Source: a virus. From it: a DNA stretch of 34,853 bases. The DNA is taken from the IMG/VR virus record IMGVR_UViG_3300037502_000794, positions 1 through 34,853 of that record, one strand, 5' to 3'. The notes beneath the pieces are model-generated. The model made no database searches, was not told where the DNA came from, and saw only the letters and a list, made by a program, of their open reading frames with translations. Positions 12,581-31,747 of this stretch are shown here, piece by piece. A program made the position numbers and the translations under genes. Each line of letters starts with the position of its first letter. Within the stretch, counting starts at the first letter, position 1.

Positions 12581-15046
12581 TTATCTGAACCCGCCGCCGA
12601 TGGACACGATGTCTGACGGGGGCAGCCAATACGTCTGGTCGTTCTCGCGTTGGATGCGCCGCTCCATTCTGCGGAGATAGCCGGGGTTGGCCGTCTCTTG
12701 CAGTTGATACCAGAGCAGATAGTTGAACGCTTCTTGCGTGTAGAACAAGTTGGCAAACGGGGTGTTGGACTTGAGCAGCCGGATCACATCACCCGATACA
12801 TCCTCGTCCTCGCCAGTCGCAACATCTCGCGCGCGTTGAAGCAGCGTAACCAGATCGGATACGGTGCCAGCCATAGGGCCAGCGAGCGTTTCCAGAGGGC
12901 CACCGCCGAACCTATTCGCCTCACCGAACAGGTAATCGCCATAGATGCCAAGCCCGCCGCCTTGCAGCATCGAGGCCATGAACAACTCTGCCGACGGCTC
13001 GCGCATGTCACGGCCTTTGGATAGTTCCTTGAGTTGCAGCACAAAGTAGCCAAGCACTGTAGTGCCGACGATGGACGTGATGAGTCCAGCATTTGCCCCA
13101 GCACCGCGCATGATCTGCTCTCTGAACGACTTGGCTCCGTAACCATACACTTGCCGCCCGAGCGCCTTGCTCAGAGCCGTGACGCCAAACGATTTGAACT
13201 GGAAGACAGAGCGTAGAGCCTGACCCGCGAGAGTGTCCGCACGATAGCCACGCTTCATAATCGCCCGTTCACGCGCACCGGCAGTTGGGACCGCAAAATC
13301 AGCCTCGGATGTCAGCAGAGCGAACACGCTCTCCCGCACATTCACGTCCTCGATGCCGCCCGGAACCAGATAATCACGACCATCAGGCCCCTTCTGAGCA
13401 TTCTTGCGAGCGATGTCCCATGCCGCCGAGTCGATTCCGTAGATGCGCAAAACCCGCTGCAAGTCAGGGGCCAGAGCATCGAAAGCCTTGCCTGATTCTC
13501 TACCAAGATCATTGGCGATGATGAGCGTGGCACCGCGCTTGTTCGCATCAGACCACGGCCCAAGTAGGTTCAGCTTGAAGAACAGTTGTTGCAGCTTTGC
13601 CAGCTTGCCCGGTGCGTCATCAGCAGGGTTGAAACGGGAATGGAAATCGCCAAGCACGCCCTCCAAGCCGACACCCATCCGATCCGCGAGTTCACGCATC
13701 TGCCCACGGTTGAGGCCACGGAACGGGGTCATCACGGCATCGCCCCACGCATCCAGCATGGAACGCCCCTGATACTGCCTGTTTGCTGCGTTGAAAGCTA
13801 TGTCAGTGAGCGACGAAATCCACGCGCCACCCAATTTGGACATGGTTTGCACCACACGGAAGCCAGCCATCCAGCGAGCAAAAGGCGTATCAATGCCGAA
13901 ATCAACTTCTCCACTTGCTTCGGCGAAGGCGGCATCAAGAGTCACAGCGGACACAGACCGTTCCAGACGGGCCAGCTTCTTCGGATCTGTGCGGTGCTTT
14001 TCCTTGAGCTTGTTGACAACCCTGTCGAGCATCGCGCGCGGGTTGGTGCCGAAGTTCTGCATCATCGCTGTAGCCTGCGCAGAGCCACGCAAATCCTCAA
14101 GGAACGCCTCTCGTAGGGAAGCGCGCCCAAACTTCTGATCGTAGTCAAACCAGTCATCCGCACTCTTGAAGATGAACAGCGACGATCTGCTCCGTAGTTT
14201 GGCTAGGTTCTGTGGCCCGGTGAACTCGAACATGCCCTCGGAACGGTCGCCGTCTTTCCGCACACCGCTGATAATCGCATCATAGGCGCTCTCAAGGAAA
14301 CCATCCACACGCTCCGGCGGGATGTCCATCTTGTCGTAGTCGAGTCTGCCCTTGATGTCTTGTTTCCACGCATCGAAGCCGACCTTCGTCATGCGCGCGG
14401 GGCTATGCACAGATTTCACAACACGCCCAGTCTTGAGCATGATGTTAGACCCGGCTGCGTTCTCACGCTGGAGTGCGGCGCGCTGATACTTGAACATGAC
14501 TTCGGCGATCTTCTTGGCGTCAGTGCTTGCGTCCACATTCGGATTACGAACAGGAGAGTTCAGATCCGACAGAGCGCGGGCAACCTCTCTCTCAAAGTCG
14601 CCAGACATGGTGTTGAACCGCGACAGCATGTTAGCCGCTTTGAGATCGGCCACCATTCCGCCAAGATACTCACCGAGCAACCCGCCAGAGATGGCATCCA
14701 CGGACCGCCGCGCGTTCTCGAACGGAGCATTGACGCCAACAAGCGCAGCCTCGATGCCGAGAGACGGATCGCCAACAGCCTGATCGGCGCGCTCTGCCTG
14801 CGTCAGAAGGTAGTTCTCTTTGATGATGTTGATGAGTTCATTGCGCTTTTTGATCTTTGCTGCTTGGTTGAGATCGCGCACGAACTTAGTGCCCTTCTCA
14901 AACAGAGCTTCCTCAAGCCCCTCAAGAGCACCAGCCGCAATCCGCGCGCGCTTCTCGCGCTGCAAGACCTCAAGTATCTCTTCAAGCTCGCCGTCATCCA
15001 GCCTGCCTGCGTTGATTTGGTCTAGTATCTTGAGGCAATCAGCCAT
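12581..15046 (-). CDS. Internal virion protein (T7 gp16 position)
   Basis: This 821-residue, mainly helical protein is the last of four genes between the tail tube and the fibre, where T7-like phages encode their ejected core proteins. It has glycine-rich hydrophobic stretches near the C-terminus (ANAGLITSIVGTTVLGYFVL) and no visible transglycosylase motif, unlike T7 gp16. It probably forms the channel that carries DNA across the cell envelope. ATG 15046 overlaps the upstream stop (TGATG). The family was inferred from size, order and composition. Confidence 0.65.
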   Translation of the reverse strand: MADCLKILDQINAGRLDDGELEEILEVLQREKRARIAAGALEGLEEALFEKGTKFVRDLNQAAKIKKRNELINIIKENYLLTQAERADQAVGDPSLGIEAALVGVNAPFENARRSVDAISGGLLGEYLGGMVADLKAANMLSRFNTMSGDFEREVARALSDLNSPVRNPNVDASTDAKKIAEVMFKYQRAALQRENAAGSNIMLKTGRVVKSVHSPARMTKVGFDAWKQDIKGRLDYDKMDIPPERVDGFLESAYDAIISGVRKDGDRSEGMFEFTGPQNLAKLRSRSSLFIFKSADDWFDYDQKFGRASLREAFLEDLRGSAQATAMMQNFGTNPRAMLDRVVNKLKEKHRTDPKKLARLERSVSAVTLDAAFAEASGEVDFGIDTPFARWMAGFRVVQTMSKLGGAWISSLTDIAFNAANRQYQGRSMLDAWGDAVMTPFRGLNRGQMRELADRMGVGLEGVLGDFHSRFNPADDAPGKLAKLQQLFFKLNLLGPWSDANKRGATLIIANDLGRESGKAFDALAPDLQRVLRIYGIDSAAWDIARKNAQKGPDGRDYLVPGGIEDVNVRESVFALLTSEADFAVPTAGARERAIMKRGYRADTLAGQALRSVFQFKSFGVTALSKALGRQVYGYGAKSFREQIMRGAGANAGLITSIVGTTVLGYFVLQLKELSKGRDMREPSAELFMASMLQGGGLGIYGDYLFGEANRFGGGPLETLAGPMAGTVSDLVTLLQRARDVATGEDEDVSGDVIRLLKSNTPFANLFYTQEAFNYLLWYQLQETANPGYLRRMERRIQRENDQTYWLPPSDIVSIGGGFR

Positions 15047-27849: not shown

Positions 27850-28298
27850 CAGACATTCCTCCTGTAGATCCCGCCATCATGGGCAAAGCCTAGGCGCCGC
27901 AACATCCTTCCCGTCCTCTCTACCATAATCCCGGACGAAACCCCAACAGATACTTGACAGCAGCCCATTTCCCTGCCCCACGCCTCATACGCGCGCAGCA
28001 ACCCACGCCCGAGCAACATCCCGCGCCGATCCGGCTTGACATAGAACACCACGTCGAAACCGAACAACTCCCGCGAAAACCAGTTCTCGGCGCACGCAAC
28101 CAGCAACACACCAGCCACCTCGCCGCCGACCTCCCCGACAAAACCTGTCAGGTTCCACAACCCGGCGCAGTGACTGTCTACCTGCCGCTCAACCTTGTCC
28201 CAGCACAACTCAACACGCGAATACACACCCTCACGGTGCAGATCCCGCAACATGCCCAAGACAACCGGGCGATCTGTAGCTTCAAAGCGACGTATCAT
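27849..28298 (-). CDS. GNAT-family acetyltransferase-like protein
   Basis: The 149-residue protein has the GNAT fold pattern: N-terminal helix (DRPVVLGMLRDLHREG), strands VGEVGGEVAGVLLVA and DVVFYVKPDRRG, the acetyl-CoA binding loop (RRGMLLGRGLLRAYEAWG) and a final strand (YRRNV). Such genes often sit between terminase and portal in podoviruses. The substrate is unknown; acetylation of a host or virion protein is possible. It overlaps the terminase by ATGA. Confidence 0.85.
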   Translation of the reverse strand: MIRRFEATDRPVVLGMLRDLHREGVYSRVELCWDKVERQVDSHCAGLWNLTGFVGEVGGEVAGVLLVACAENWFSRELFGFDVVFYVKPDRRGMLLGRGLLRAYEAWGREMGCCQVSVGVSSGIMVERTGRMLRRLGFAHDGGIYRRNV

Positions 28299-29569
28299 GC
28301 CGCGAACGGATCATAGTCCATGATCGCCTTCTGCTGAGGAACCTTGCCCGCACCGCCACCCTCTCTCAAACCCACCGCCAGATACCGGAACGCATCCGCC
28401 GCATGGCTCGACCAGTCATGCACCGGGCTGGCACGGAAGCTGCGCGTCCGCTCATTGTACGCCCGGTGATACTGCCGCAACGCCTCCAGCCCCGCCTTGC
28501 ACGCCTCACGGTCAATCCAGATCCGAGGCAACAGCATCTGCGCCGCGTGTATCCCGTCCTCCAACGGCAGGTTCGGCACCACGCGGAAGTTCAGGCCCAA
28601 ATCCCACGCAACCTCGCGCCGACTCTTCCCCGACCCCAGCTCGCGGACCTCGATGTCATGCGGCGCGTTGTGCGTCCCGTAGAGATACCGCCGCTCCGTC
28701 AGCACCTTGCAGTAATGCGGCAACCCCTCGCCACGAGCCTCGTAGAAGTCGATCACATGCAGCGAACGGCCCACGCTCTGCGTAAACCAGATCGCCGTGC
28801 TATCACCTACACCCAGATCCCACCATGTATCTACCCGGAAGCTCGGGTCATACGGAACCTTCGTCACGCGCCCCGCCGCCGTCAGCTCCTCCAACTCCTT
28901 GCCGTAGATCGCACCCGGAATATTGGCCGCCCACGAACACTCGAACTCCTGCGCATACTGGTCCGGCGTCATCATCCGACGCGCAGCCTCCAGTTCCTCC
29001 TCCGGCAAGATCCCCGTCTCGCTCGCCCGGTAAACCGCCGCCAGCCAGTCCTCGTCCCCCGTGGCCTGCTCATACAGGTCGTAGAACATGTTCTGACCCT
29101 TGGGCGTCCCGACGAAAATGCACCAACCGCCGCGATCCGACAGCGCAGGCCGGATGACCTCGGGGAACACACTCTCCGGCATGTCCGCAACCTCGTCCAT
29201 CACGCAGCCGTCGAGATAGATACCCCGCAAGCTATCCGGGTTCTCCGCACCCAGCAGGCTGATCCGCGCCCCGTTCGGCAAATCACAGCGCAACTCCGTC
29301 TCGTGGAACTTCACACCCGGCACCGCACCCGCGAACTGCTTGAGATAGTCCCACGCCACGTTCTTCGCCTGCCGATACGTCGGGGCCATATACGCAAACC
29401 GGGGATTGCTCTTGGCGCACATGAACGCATCGCGCAGAATGTGGTTGATCGCCCACACCGTCTTGCCAAACCGCCGATGACAGACAACCACGCCCCAGCG
29501 CCGCTTCGCCATCTCGTTGTGCAGCCGCAACTGCAACGGACGCGGAGCATACGGGATCACAACCTGCAT
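28295..29569 (-). CDS. terL: Terminase large subunit
   Basis: The 424-residue packaging motor shows the ATPase Walker A (CHRRFGKT, 30-37), Walker B (IYLDGCVMDE, Asp125-Glu126) and the coupling motif GTPKG (154-158). The nuclease domain has Asp251 and Asp256 in WWDLGVGDSTAI and a final acidic motif in HDWSSHAADAFRYLA. It cuts concatemers and pumps DNA into the shell through the portal. It starts with TGATG overlap to the 55-residue gene and ends with ATGA to the GNAT gene. Confidence 0.95.
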   Translation of the reverse strand: MQVVIPYAPRPLQLRLHNEMAKRRWGVVVCHRRFGKTVWAINHILRDAFMCAKSNPRFAYMAPTYRQAKNVAWDYLKQFAGAVPGVKFHETELRCDLPNGARISLLGAENPDSLRGIYLDGCVMDEVADMPESVFPEVIRPALSDRGGWCIFVGTPKGQNMFYDLYEQATGDEDWLAAVYRASETGILPEEELEAARRMMTPDQYAQEFECSWAANIPGAIYGKELEELTAAGRVTKVPYDPSFRVDTWWDLGVGDSTAIWFTQSVGRSLHVIDFYEARGEGLPHYCKVLTERRYLYGTHNAPHDIEVRELGSGKSRREVAWDLGLNFRVVPNLPLEDGIHAAQMLLPRIWIDREACKAGLEALRQYHRAYNERTRSFRASPVHDWSSHAADAFRYLAVGLREGGGAGKVPQQKAIMDYDPFAA

Positions 29570-29736
29570 CAGTGAATCACCCGGTTGACCACCTTCATCA
29601 CGCCCATCTGCTCCAGAAGCGTCTCGTAGATGTCCAAGATAAGCAACGCAATCTCCAGCGCCTCGTCCAAATCATCGCGCTCAATGGCGTCCTCAAGGTC
29701 GCCCTGCATCGCCTGCAACTGCTCGCTCAAGCTCAC
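29569..29736 (-). CDS. 55-residue acidic hypothetical protein between terS and terL
   Basis: This ORF bridges terS and terL precisely: GTG 29736 overlaps the terS stop (GTGA) and its TGA overlaps the terL ATG (TGATG). The peptide is acidic and helical (LQAMQGDLEDAIERDDLDEA, then ALLILDIYETLLEQMG). It has no known family. Its position suggests a small terminase cofactor or a translational coupling link between the two subunits. Confidence 0.65.
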   Translation of the reverse strand: MSLSEQLQAMQGDLEDAIERDDLDEALEIALLILDIYETLLEQMGVMKVVNRVIH

Positions 29737-30239
29737 TCCGCAGCCCTTACTTCAACCTCGCCACCAGCCCAGCTAATCGTCATAGCCTGATGCTGCGGCT
29801 TGTCACTCTGACGATCCCGTATCCCATTGGGCGACAAAACGCCCTTCGTCCAGCGGATCGTGTCAATCTCCAGCTTGCGACGCTGCATCTCAGCATTGAG
29901 CCATCGCGCATCCATCGGCTTGCCATCCGCATCATGCGTCGGCAACGGAGCACTCGCCAGCATCGTAGCGCGGTCAGCAAGATACTCAGCCTGCCGAACA
30001 CGCCCGTGCCGGTAGATCTCGTACATCTCCTCGCTCGAACCAACCGCACGCATCACCGTGCTGTAGTCCGGCATCTCAGGCTCGCCGAGGATCTCAAGCA
30101 AGTTGCGGCCAATCGCCATCTCATCCGAGATGTAGCGCATCAACTGCACCGTCATCCGAACGCCCTTGCGAGGACGCATCGCAGGCAGCGAATAATCGGG
30201 ACCAGCAGCCTTGCCTTGCGAAACACGCTTTGTGGGCAT
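29733..30239 (-). CDS. terS: Terminase small subunit
   Basis: The 168-residue protein, first in the late operon and just before terL, has the pattern of small terminases: an HTH-like region (TVQLMRYISDEMAIGRNLLE, then EPEMPDYSTVMRAVGSSEEM), the Y..R..RVRQAEYLADRA helix and a C-terminal tail. It binds the packaging site and recruits the large subunit. GCAGGAGGTGCCCC precedes ATG 30239, a near-perfect site; the ORF extension to 30335 lacks one. Confidence 0.75.
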   Translation of the reverse strand: MPTKRVSQGKAAGPDYSLPAMRPRKGVRMTVQLMRYISDEMAIGRNLLEILGEPEMPDYSTVMRAVGSSEEMYEIYRHGRVRQAEYLADRATMLASAPLPTHDADGKPMDARWLNAEMQRRKLEIDTIRWTKGVLSPNGIRDRQSDKPQHQAMTISWAGGEVEVRAAE

Positions 30240-30312: not shown

Positions 30313-30375
30313 CTGTGAGGCAGACACTCTCCCACGAGGGTATATTACGCAGCTACAGCCGCACGGGTGTTTCGC

Positions 30376-30409
30376 GGGGGGTGGGGGTGGCGGGGTGCCG
30401 AAATCGGGG
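30376..30409 (+). other. G-rich tract with four G-runs
   Basis: Runs of 6, 5, 4 and 4 guanines (30376-30381, 30383-30387, 30392-30395, 30406-30409) have spacers of 1, 4 and 10 bases. A G-quadruplex on the + strand is possible, though the last loop is long. It may pause replication or transcription or mark a packaging site. Confidence 0.4.
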
Positions 30410-30438
30410 CCGATCCGCGCTGGAATCCGATAACGTGC

Positions 30439-30469
30439 ATTATTTTACGTCCGGCCCTAGCAATAACAA
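30439..30469 (-). promoter_or_regulatory. Possible late promoter for the structural operon
   Basis: Read leftward, TTGTTA (30469-30464) and AATAAT (30444-30439) are 19 bases apart in a locally AT-rich patch, giving a terS leader of about 200 bases. Spacing is too long for a good sigma70 promoter, so this is a weak candidate that may need an activator. Confidence 0.25.
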
Positions 30470-30482
30470 TGGGTTACGCGAT

Positions 30483-30497
30483 ATGCGGGCAGCGCAT
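30483..30497. promoter_or_regulatory. 15-bp dyad, copy 1 (ATGCG-GGCAG-CGCAT)
   Basis: Perfect 5-bp arms flank the spacer GGCAG. The same spacer and near-identical arms recur at 30539-30553, 56 bp away in the same orientation. Matching arms and spacer suggest a dimeric regulator's operator. Confidence 0.5.
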
Positions 30498-30538
30498 GGC
30501 CGGAGAGGTAGCCGGATACCGCAGACGACGGGCCAGCA

Positions 30539-30553
30539 ATGCAGGCAGTGCAT
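30539..30553. promoter_or_regulatory. 15-bp dyad, copy 2 (ATGCA-GGCAG-TGCAT)
   Basis: This is the second copy of the dyad, with a compensating change in both arms (G:C to A:T at the inner pair) that keeps the symmetry while the GGCAG spacer is unchanged. Confidence 0.5.
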
Positions 30554-30625
30554 CGGTCCGGGCCTCGCGCGCGGAAGGGTAGCGGCTGTGTGTTGCGCCG
30601 GACGCCATTCCCCCACCCCTGCGAC

Positions 30626-30757: not shown

Positions 30758-30787
30758 CTTGACACCTACTGTCACGCATTGCATATC
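30758..30787 (+). promoter_or_regulatory. Promoter with dyad for the ardC-like operon
   Basis: TTGACA at 30759-30764 is followed after 17 bases by CATATC (30782-30787), a weak -10. The -35 lies in a dyad, TGACA-CCTAC-TGTCA, which shares CTTGAC-N7-GTCA with the promoter at 2457-2486. A GGCATGCC palindrome lies just upstream (30751). Confidence 0.45.
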
Positions 30788-30835: not shown

Positions 30836-31747
30836 ATGACCACCGACACCGCAGACATCCACAGCACCATCACCGATGCCATCGTATCCGCCATAGAAGC
30901 TGGAGTCGGCGAGTGGCAAATGCCTTGGCACAAGTCTGGCAACGGGCTGCACCGCCCGGTCAACATCGACACCGGCAAGCGTTATCGTGGCGTCAACATC
31001 CTCAGCCTTTGGGCGTCATCGCAGCGCAACGGCTTTACGTCCGGCACTTGGGGCACTTACAAGCAATGGCAAGCGCGCGGCGCTCAGGTTCGCAAGGGCA
31101 TGAAGGGCACGCCCGTCGTGTTCTATAAGACATTTGAAGTTGAGACGCAGACAGACGCAGGAGACGCAGAAACAAGCACGCGCATGGTTGCCCGTGGTAG
31201 CTATGTGTTTAACGCGGATCAAGTTGACGGATACACCGCTCCGCCTGTTGAGGCCACGTCTGATCCCGTGTCATTCATCGACACCGCAGAGGCTTTCATC
31301 CGCGACACTGGTGCGACAATCCGCTTCGGCGGGAACGCTTACTACAGCCCCACGGGCGATTTCGTGAATATGCCCCACCCGCACGAGTTCATCGGCACCG
31401 CCACAAGCACCGCCGGTGAGTGCTACTATTCGACAATCCTGCACGAACTTGCACACTGGACCAGCCCCGCGAAGCGGTGCGATAGGCAACTGGGCAAGCG
31501 TTTCGGCGATGCCGCGTATGCGATGGAAGAGCTTGTGGCAGAGCTTGCAGCCGCGTTCCTCTGCGCTGATCTTGGCATCACTTCATCGCCGCGACCAGAC
31601 CATGCGTCCTACATCCAGTCATGGTTGCGCGTGCTGAAAGCTGACAAGAAAGCAATATTCACCGCCGCGAGCGCAGCATCCAAGGCGTGCGATTATCTCG
31701 ACTCGCTGCAATCCGACACCACAGAAGACGCCGCAGAAGCGGCATAA
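30836..31747 (+). CDS. ardC: ArdC-like antirestriction protein (ssDNA-binding + metallopeptidase)
   Basis: The 303-residue protein has an N-terminal ArdC/DUF1738 ssDNA-binding domain (about 8-130; WQMPWHKSGNGLHRPVNIDT and RGVNILSLWASSQRNGFTSG) and a C-terminal zincin-like domain with HELAH at 203-207. A downstream acidic helix follows (MEELVAELAAAFLCADLGI, about 230-248). ArdC-type proteins protect incoming DNA from restriction and are found on plasmids and phages. It is expressed away from the structural genes under its own promoter, with AGGAG at 30824-30828. Whether proteolysis is part of its role is not known. Confidence 0.9.
   Translation: MTTDTADIHSTITDAIVSAIEAGVGEWQMPWHKSGNGLHRPVNIDTGKRYRGVNILSLWASSQRNGFTSGTWGTYKQWQARGAQVRKGMKGTPVVFYKTFEVETQTDAGDAETSTRMVARGSYVFNADQVDGYTAPPVEATSDPVSFIDTAEAFIRDTGATIRFGGNAYYSPTGDFVNMPHPHEFIGTATSTAGECYYSTILHELAHWTSPAKRCDRQLGKRFGDAAYAMEELVAELAAAFLCADLGITSSPRPDHASYIQSWLRVLKADKKAIFTAASAASKACDYLDSLQSDTTEDAAEAA

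Follow-up and report, generated by a model that had tools for sequence, protein, structure and literature searches.

Paired dyads upstream of terS belong to a conserved, terminase-linked composite site of uncultured phages

The two 15-bp dyads described here are real and conserved, and they form part of a composite non-coding site of approximately 240 bp that is conserved next to the terminase genes terS and terL in about 40 lineages of uncultured phages. They were found in the window, by which we mean the whole stretch of viral DNA analysed (34,853 bp; virus record IMGVR_UViG_3300037502_000794). The dyads probably serve a protein that docks on them and acts at the composite site, rather than being switches of the neighbouring ardC-like gene. 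The explanation that we favour, at slightly less than even confidence, is that they are paired sites for a dimeric or multimeric protein within a site that most likely serves the initiation of packaging, of either the pac or the cos type. As a single function, packaging initiation is placed ahead of late-operon control, a replication origin and Xer accessory DNA, in this order.

A 596-bp gap that separates terS (minus strand, start at 30239) from the ardC-like gene (plus strand, start at 30836) holds both dyads, with a third dyad between them:

30483..30497, unstranded: dyad 1, ATGCG-GGCAG-CGCAT, with its arms conserved at the equal place in relatives
30507..30520, unstranded: third dyad, GGTA-N6-TACC (GGTAGCCGGATACC), invariant in relatives
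30539..30553, unstranded: dyad 2, ATGCA-GGCAG-TGCAT, with its arms conserved in relatives

A preliminary description of this DNA had reported the same 15-bp dyad twice, 56 bp apart, and both 15-mers were indeed found exactly there, with a start-to-start distance of 56 bp. They are the sole exact matches to ATGCRN5YGCAT in the whole 34,853-bp record, so the motif is not scattered over the genome. The gap holds three perfect 5-5-5 dyads altogether, the remaining one (at 30760) being unrelated to dyads 1 and 2. When the gap was shuffled 3000 times with a first-order Markov model, two dyads with equal outer 4-bp arms appeared in 17 shuffles, and two with both equal outer arms and an equal spacer in a single one. 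Chance alone is therefore an unlikely source of the pair, as had been supposed.

The first set of relatives was collected by a TerS-based search, and farther relatives were found by TerL and by the pattern of a C-tract described below. The conservation expected of a functional site was seen in the close relatives: the window, L007 and L010 groups have ATGC-N7-GCAT at each of the two places with the 56-bp spacing, a few arms being weakened. In dyad 2 of the relatives (ATGCACTGCCTGCAT, ATGCACCGCCCGCAT, ATGCCGTCGGCGCAT and ATGCGTCTGCTGCAT) the arms are constant and the middle varies, and GGTA..TACC between the dyads is invariant in 8/8 aligned relatives. The further claim, that the inner arm pair changes in a compensating manner around a constant spacer, held only in part. 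Symmetry of the fifth pair is seen in the window, in L007 and L090 and in one copy of L010, but is lost in L006 and L085 and in another copy of L010, and only the closest relatives of the window share its GGCAG spacer. The motif itself recurs in a lineage with a TerS identity of only 47%, where L090 has two copies of ATGCA-N5-TGCAT and L085 is alike. The viral loci that were selected by their C-tract add up to 942 kb, and ATGCRN5YGCAT was found in them 12 times, nine of these at most 170 bp from the C-tract. Each dyad is likely a binding site for a dimeric protein. A pair of TGC-N7-GCA motifs with the same 56-bp spacing in the L019 group was rejected, as these are chance matches inside a coding gene.

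The surrounding elements and the terminase genes in the window are the following:

30564..30574, unstranded: GCGCGC element, left border of the site (CCGCGCGCGAG on the minus strand), present in 83 of 90 terminase-linked sites, mostly as CTACGCGCG
30464..30476, plus strand: IHF-like site TAACAATGGGTTA, one mismatch to WATCAANNNNTTR, a consensus in excess family-wide
30423..30450, plus strand: degenerate dif-like XerC/XerD site GAATCCGATAA-CGTGCA-TTATTTTACGT, XerD arm 8/11
30375..30387, minus strand: C-tract core CCCCCACCCCCCG, then ..AAAC, then CCCG or CGCCCGCC; conserved in relatives, one per near-complete contig having the C-tract
30338..30356, minus strand: TATA element GTAGCTGCGTAATATACCC (dyad or -10-like), approximately 30 bp past the C-tract, conserved in relatives
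29733..30239, minus strand: terS, Sf6-type small terminase (PF20901, E = 4e-13; phrog_1482; PDB 3hef, E = 0.0019)
28295..29569, minus strand: terL, large terminase related to that of pelagiphage HTVC010P (56-57% amino acid identity), the nearest cultured TerL

In farther relatives the order of the parts is CTACGCGCGYGAGGC, variable dyads or direct repeats, the IHF-like site, the dif-like dyad, ACCCCC(C)ACCCCCCGnnAAACcGCCCGCC and the TATA dyad. A scan for the C-tract that was independent of any protein found 117 viral stretches. Of all C-tract loci collected, 90 are beside terS/terL. The C-tract is between the two genes at 75 of these and just upstream of terS at seven (the window group), while at the other eight only one of the genes was detected nearby. 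Where both are present, the orientation of the site is constant and its distance from terL is constant per lineage. Among the bacterial-genome matches listed, none of those analysed was near such a terminase. This constant linkage assigns the site to the terminase genes rather than to ardC. The region gave no Rfam match, and blastn against cultured phages returned none either.

The preliminary description had taken the dyads for operators of a dimeric regulator acting on the terS or ardC-like promoters. Paired sites for a dimeric DNA-binding protein are still a fair reading, but the proposed targets are wrong or unproven. In the near-identical genome L005/L196, ArdC is down to 19 residues and both dyads are exact, and we therefore rejected the ardC operator; ArdC was also absent from the site in the other relatives tested. 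Since the site is most often between terS and terL, it is not in general an operator of divergent terS/ardC promoters. A sigma-70 scan of the gap gave one weak promoter-like site (30442-30469), near but not over the dyads. The proteins encoded at 2214 and 33656, named as HTH and winged-helix candidates for the regulator, matched no PHROG or Pfam family at E<=0.001, which leaves these assignments unsupported. The ardC-like gene itself (30836-31747), nearly absent from L005/L196, looks like a recently gained or lost cassette.

The IHF consensus is strongly enriched in the family. Perfect WATCAANNNNTTR was found in 14 of 43 nonredundant sites against 0.42 expected from shuffles, and WATCAANNNNTTR with at most one mismatch in 34 of 43 against 7.7, counts that are inflated by the relatedness of the sites; in many lineages the element moreover holds a fixed position next to the repeats. 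Judged by consensus, the family as a whole carries a putative IHF site, and the window copy is one mismatch off.

Directly left of the IHF-like site, the paired repeats are lineage-specific: ATGCR-N5-YGCAT in the window group and L085/L090, and direct repeats of 11-12 bp in other lineages (GTTTGGCACAC, TAGGCGCCC, TAGGCACC, TTGGCACCC and TTGGCACCA). Between L129, L150 and L171 both repeat copies are altered together while TerS is nearly unchanged, and between L073 and L090 the repeats differ with only few differences in TerS. It is thus doubtful that TerS is the sole reader of the repeats; it is one candidate ligand of the dyads, not clearly the one. The repeats may be read by another protein or be homogenised by mutation. 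In L101, L107, L113, L129, L150, L156 and L171, the 11-12 bp repeats and a nearby hairpin change in both copies or arms between near-identical genomes.

Slippage and quasi-palindrome repair would produce such changes and could keep the repeats alike with no binding protein needed. Among the explanations weighed we give this the lowest probability, as both places, 56 bp apart, retain ATGC-N7-GCAT although the sequence inside the dyads and between them has diverged, and as the motif is found again in the distant L085/L090 lineage. The joint change of both copies is likewise what iterons do upon a change of initiator. The paired dyads or direct repeats could accordingly be iterons for a phage initiator assisted by IHF, since they adjoin the IHF-like site and a primosomal/DUF1376 gene is located 1.7 kb away in the window. 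A replication origin seems unlikely to us, however, because there are two copies only and the site tracks terS/terL, even when it is between them.

Two observations weigh against the packaging reading: the repeats vary at near-constant TerS, which tells against TerS as their reader, and the -10-like TATA element, downstream of the C-tract, would fit a late promoter just as well. The C-tract and TATA element could form a special promoter of the late operon, with the dyads and the IHF-like site as an upstream enhancer or operator pair for a phage regulator. The interval between the C-tract and the TATAAT-like element is nearly constant, and the element directly precedes terS, or a small ORF and terL; IHF beside paired upstream sites is a familiar regulatory layout, and the repeats vary independently of TerS. 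On the other hand, the element is without a sigma-70 -35 partner and the sole predicted promoter lies elsewhere. Conservation of the C-tract and GCGCGC element over approximately 240 bp is beyond the usual needs of a promoter, and a dif-like site would be unexpected there. We consider late-operon control possible but doubtful.

For packaging initiation, two kinds of known site can be compared. Lambda-type cos (cosN plus cosB, with R sites and the IHF site I1) shares with the present site an approximately 200-bp non-coding location beside the terminase genes, repeated protein sites, an IHF site and a GC-rich conserved element. In contrast to lambda, TerS is here Sf6-like and not Nu1-like, the site is between terS and terL in most lineages, and near-complete contigs run through it. 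Headful pac sites (P1, P22, Sf6) have in common with it the Sf6-type TerS and circularly permuted assemblies. The best-known member of the Sf6-like TerS family starts headful packaging, and P1 pac has repeated hexamers and IHF. Many pac sites are, however, inside the terS coding sequence, whereas the present one is in non-coding DNA and contains a C-tract that hardly varies.

In 12 near-complete contigs (32-37 kb) the site is internal, at scattered positions, although the template DNA may have been intracellular; none of the 12 ended at the site, as fixed cohesive ends would have it. In the near-identical contig L005, window bases 235-2000 are upstream of a region matching the other end of the window, which joins the two ends on one map, possibly with approximately 1.6 kb missing. 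The scattered positions and the joined ends fit a circular or circularly permuted map. Four of the 66 contigs found with the upstream anchor (L094, L200, L327 and L342) end inside the TATA element, a cluster that is only suggestive, because the ends are few and assemblers also break at stretches shared between strains. The evidence leans to pac over cos, and contig ends do not settle it. One contig of 32,374 bp (L332/L368) seemed to end exactly in its C-tract; we discarded this genome end as a data-chunk boundary, since the same contig has an internal C-tract at 13440.

More surprising than the dyads is the dif-like element that the site carries next to the terminase genes. By its layout, the CATAAT-N4-ATTATG dyad of the relatives is a Xer site of an 11-bp XerC arm, 6 bp and an 11-bp XerD arm. 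In many lineages the XerD arm TTATGTTAAAT matches E. coli dif at 11/11 positions, and the best scores in relatives reach 19/22, while shuffles gave at most 16/22; the window copy scores 14/22 overall. A query with E. coli dif found approximately one copy per chromosome in 5174 of 5426 genomes. Alphaproteobacterial chromosomes carry TTATCCGATAA-TGTATA-TTATGTAAAA and AAATCCGATAA-TGTATA-TTATGTAAAA, and the XerC arms of phages L091 and L085/L090 are identical to the XerC arms of these sites, so the dif arms could help to assign hosts. A dif-like site beside the terminase genes is also present in L010, L062, L085, L091 and other tailed-phage contigs; in L101, L107, L113, L129 and others a hairpin takes its place and the rest of the site is retained.

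The 28-bp XerC-N6-XerD layout and the arms matching host dif are shared with dif itself, with the attP of IMEX (CTXphi, VGJphi, GGI) and with cer and psi. The present element differs in that it occurs in tailed phages beside terminase genes, together with an IHF-like site and a C-tract, in that the window copy is degenerate, and in that no integrated copy was found. No copy integrated at host dif was detected in the 385 alpha- and 369 gammaproteobacterial genomes sampled, which may not include the hosts; a prophage search of these 754 genomes gave TerL matches of at most 56% identity, none with the site. A limited literature search found no report of the site or of a dif-like element in these phages, which does not prove novelty.

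By analogy with cer, psi or IMEX attP, the dyads could be loading places for a protein that governs XerCD recombination at the neighbouring dif-like site. The perfect XerD arms of many lineages and the XerC arms of alphaproteobacterial type would suit such accessory DNA, and cer also carries approximately 180 bp of it (PMC5357621). Lineages without dif nevertheless retain the rest of the site including the paired repeats, and the XerD arm of the window is degraded. Furthermore, dif is turned one way with respect to the repeats in some lineages and the other way in others, whereas the accessory DNA of cer-type sites keeps to one side. We regard this role as rather improbable, slightly more so than that of an origin.

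In the packaging reading, we infer the following course of events. A dimeric or multimeric DNA-binding protein would occupy the paired dyads, and IHF would bend the DNA between them and the C-tract/TATA element, bringing the dyad-side proteins to the end where terminase is positioned for loading or cutting. In the many lineages with a host-like dif built into the region, host XerCD might recombine there, leading to integration or dimer resolution. Extending this, a widespread group of podoviruses in which no integrase was found here might carry, next to the terminase genes, a single site that combines a packaging signal, a host-mimicking dif and IHF, with XerCD integrating the genome or resolving dimers where terminase starts packaging, and with the fast-changing repeats giving lineage-specific control of the choice; we put this forward tentatively, as a proposal that is more likely wrong than right. 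If packaging initiation is right, the site would offer a signal for the start of packaging that can be tested in an abundant group of mostly uncultured phages with unsettled genome ends. It would also mean that tailed phages place a Xer site within a site linked to terminase, a matter of interest for the possible ways in which marine phages that have no integrase turn temperate.

Searching cultured phages with TerS gave three remote matches only. HTVC010P-like pelagiphages (Skadi, Greip) resemble the window in the non-coding DNA that lies upstream of terL, where Greip and HTVC010P show a fainter C-rich and TATA echo, but they are without a recognisable dif site, ATGC dyads or a close TerS homologue. 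A C-rich stretch and a TATATATA element were seen upstream of terL at 2001-2200 of L205 (Greip) and 560-620 of L201 (HTVC010P). The Skadi relatives, obtained as isolates, were assembled into circular contigs (PMC10504331).

Two rearranged forms of the site were also observed. In L095, compared with L121, L146 and L147, the inner segment (dif, IHF-like site and flanks) is inverted, with the GCGCGC and C-tract borders unturned. In L328 and L343 the upstream anchor ATGCRTTTTGCGCAAMCC is matched and then gives way to other sequence that contains an IHF-like and a dif-like element and may represent one more variant of the site.
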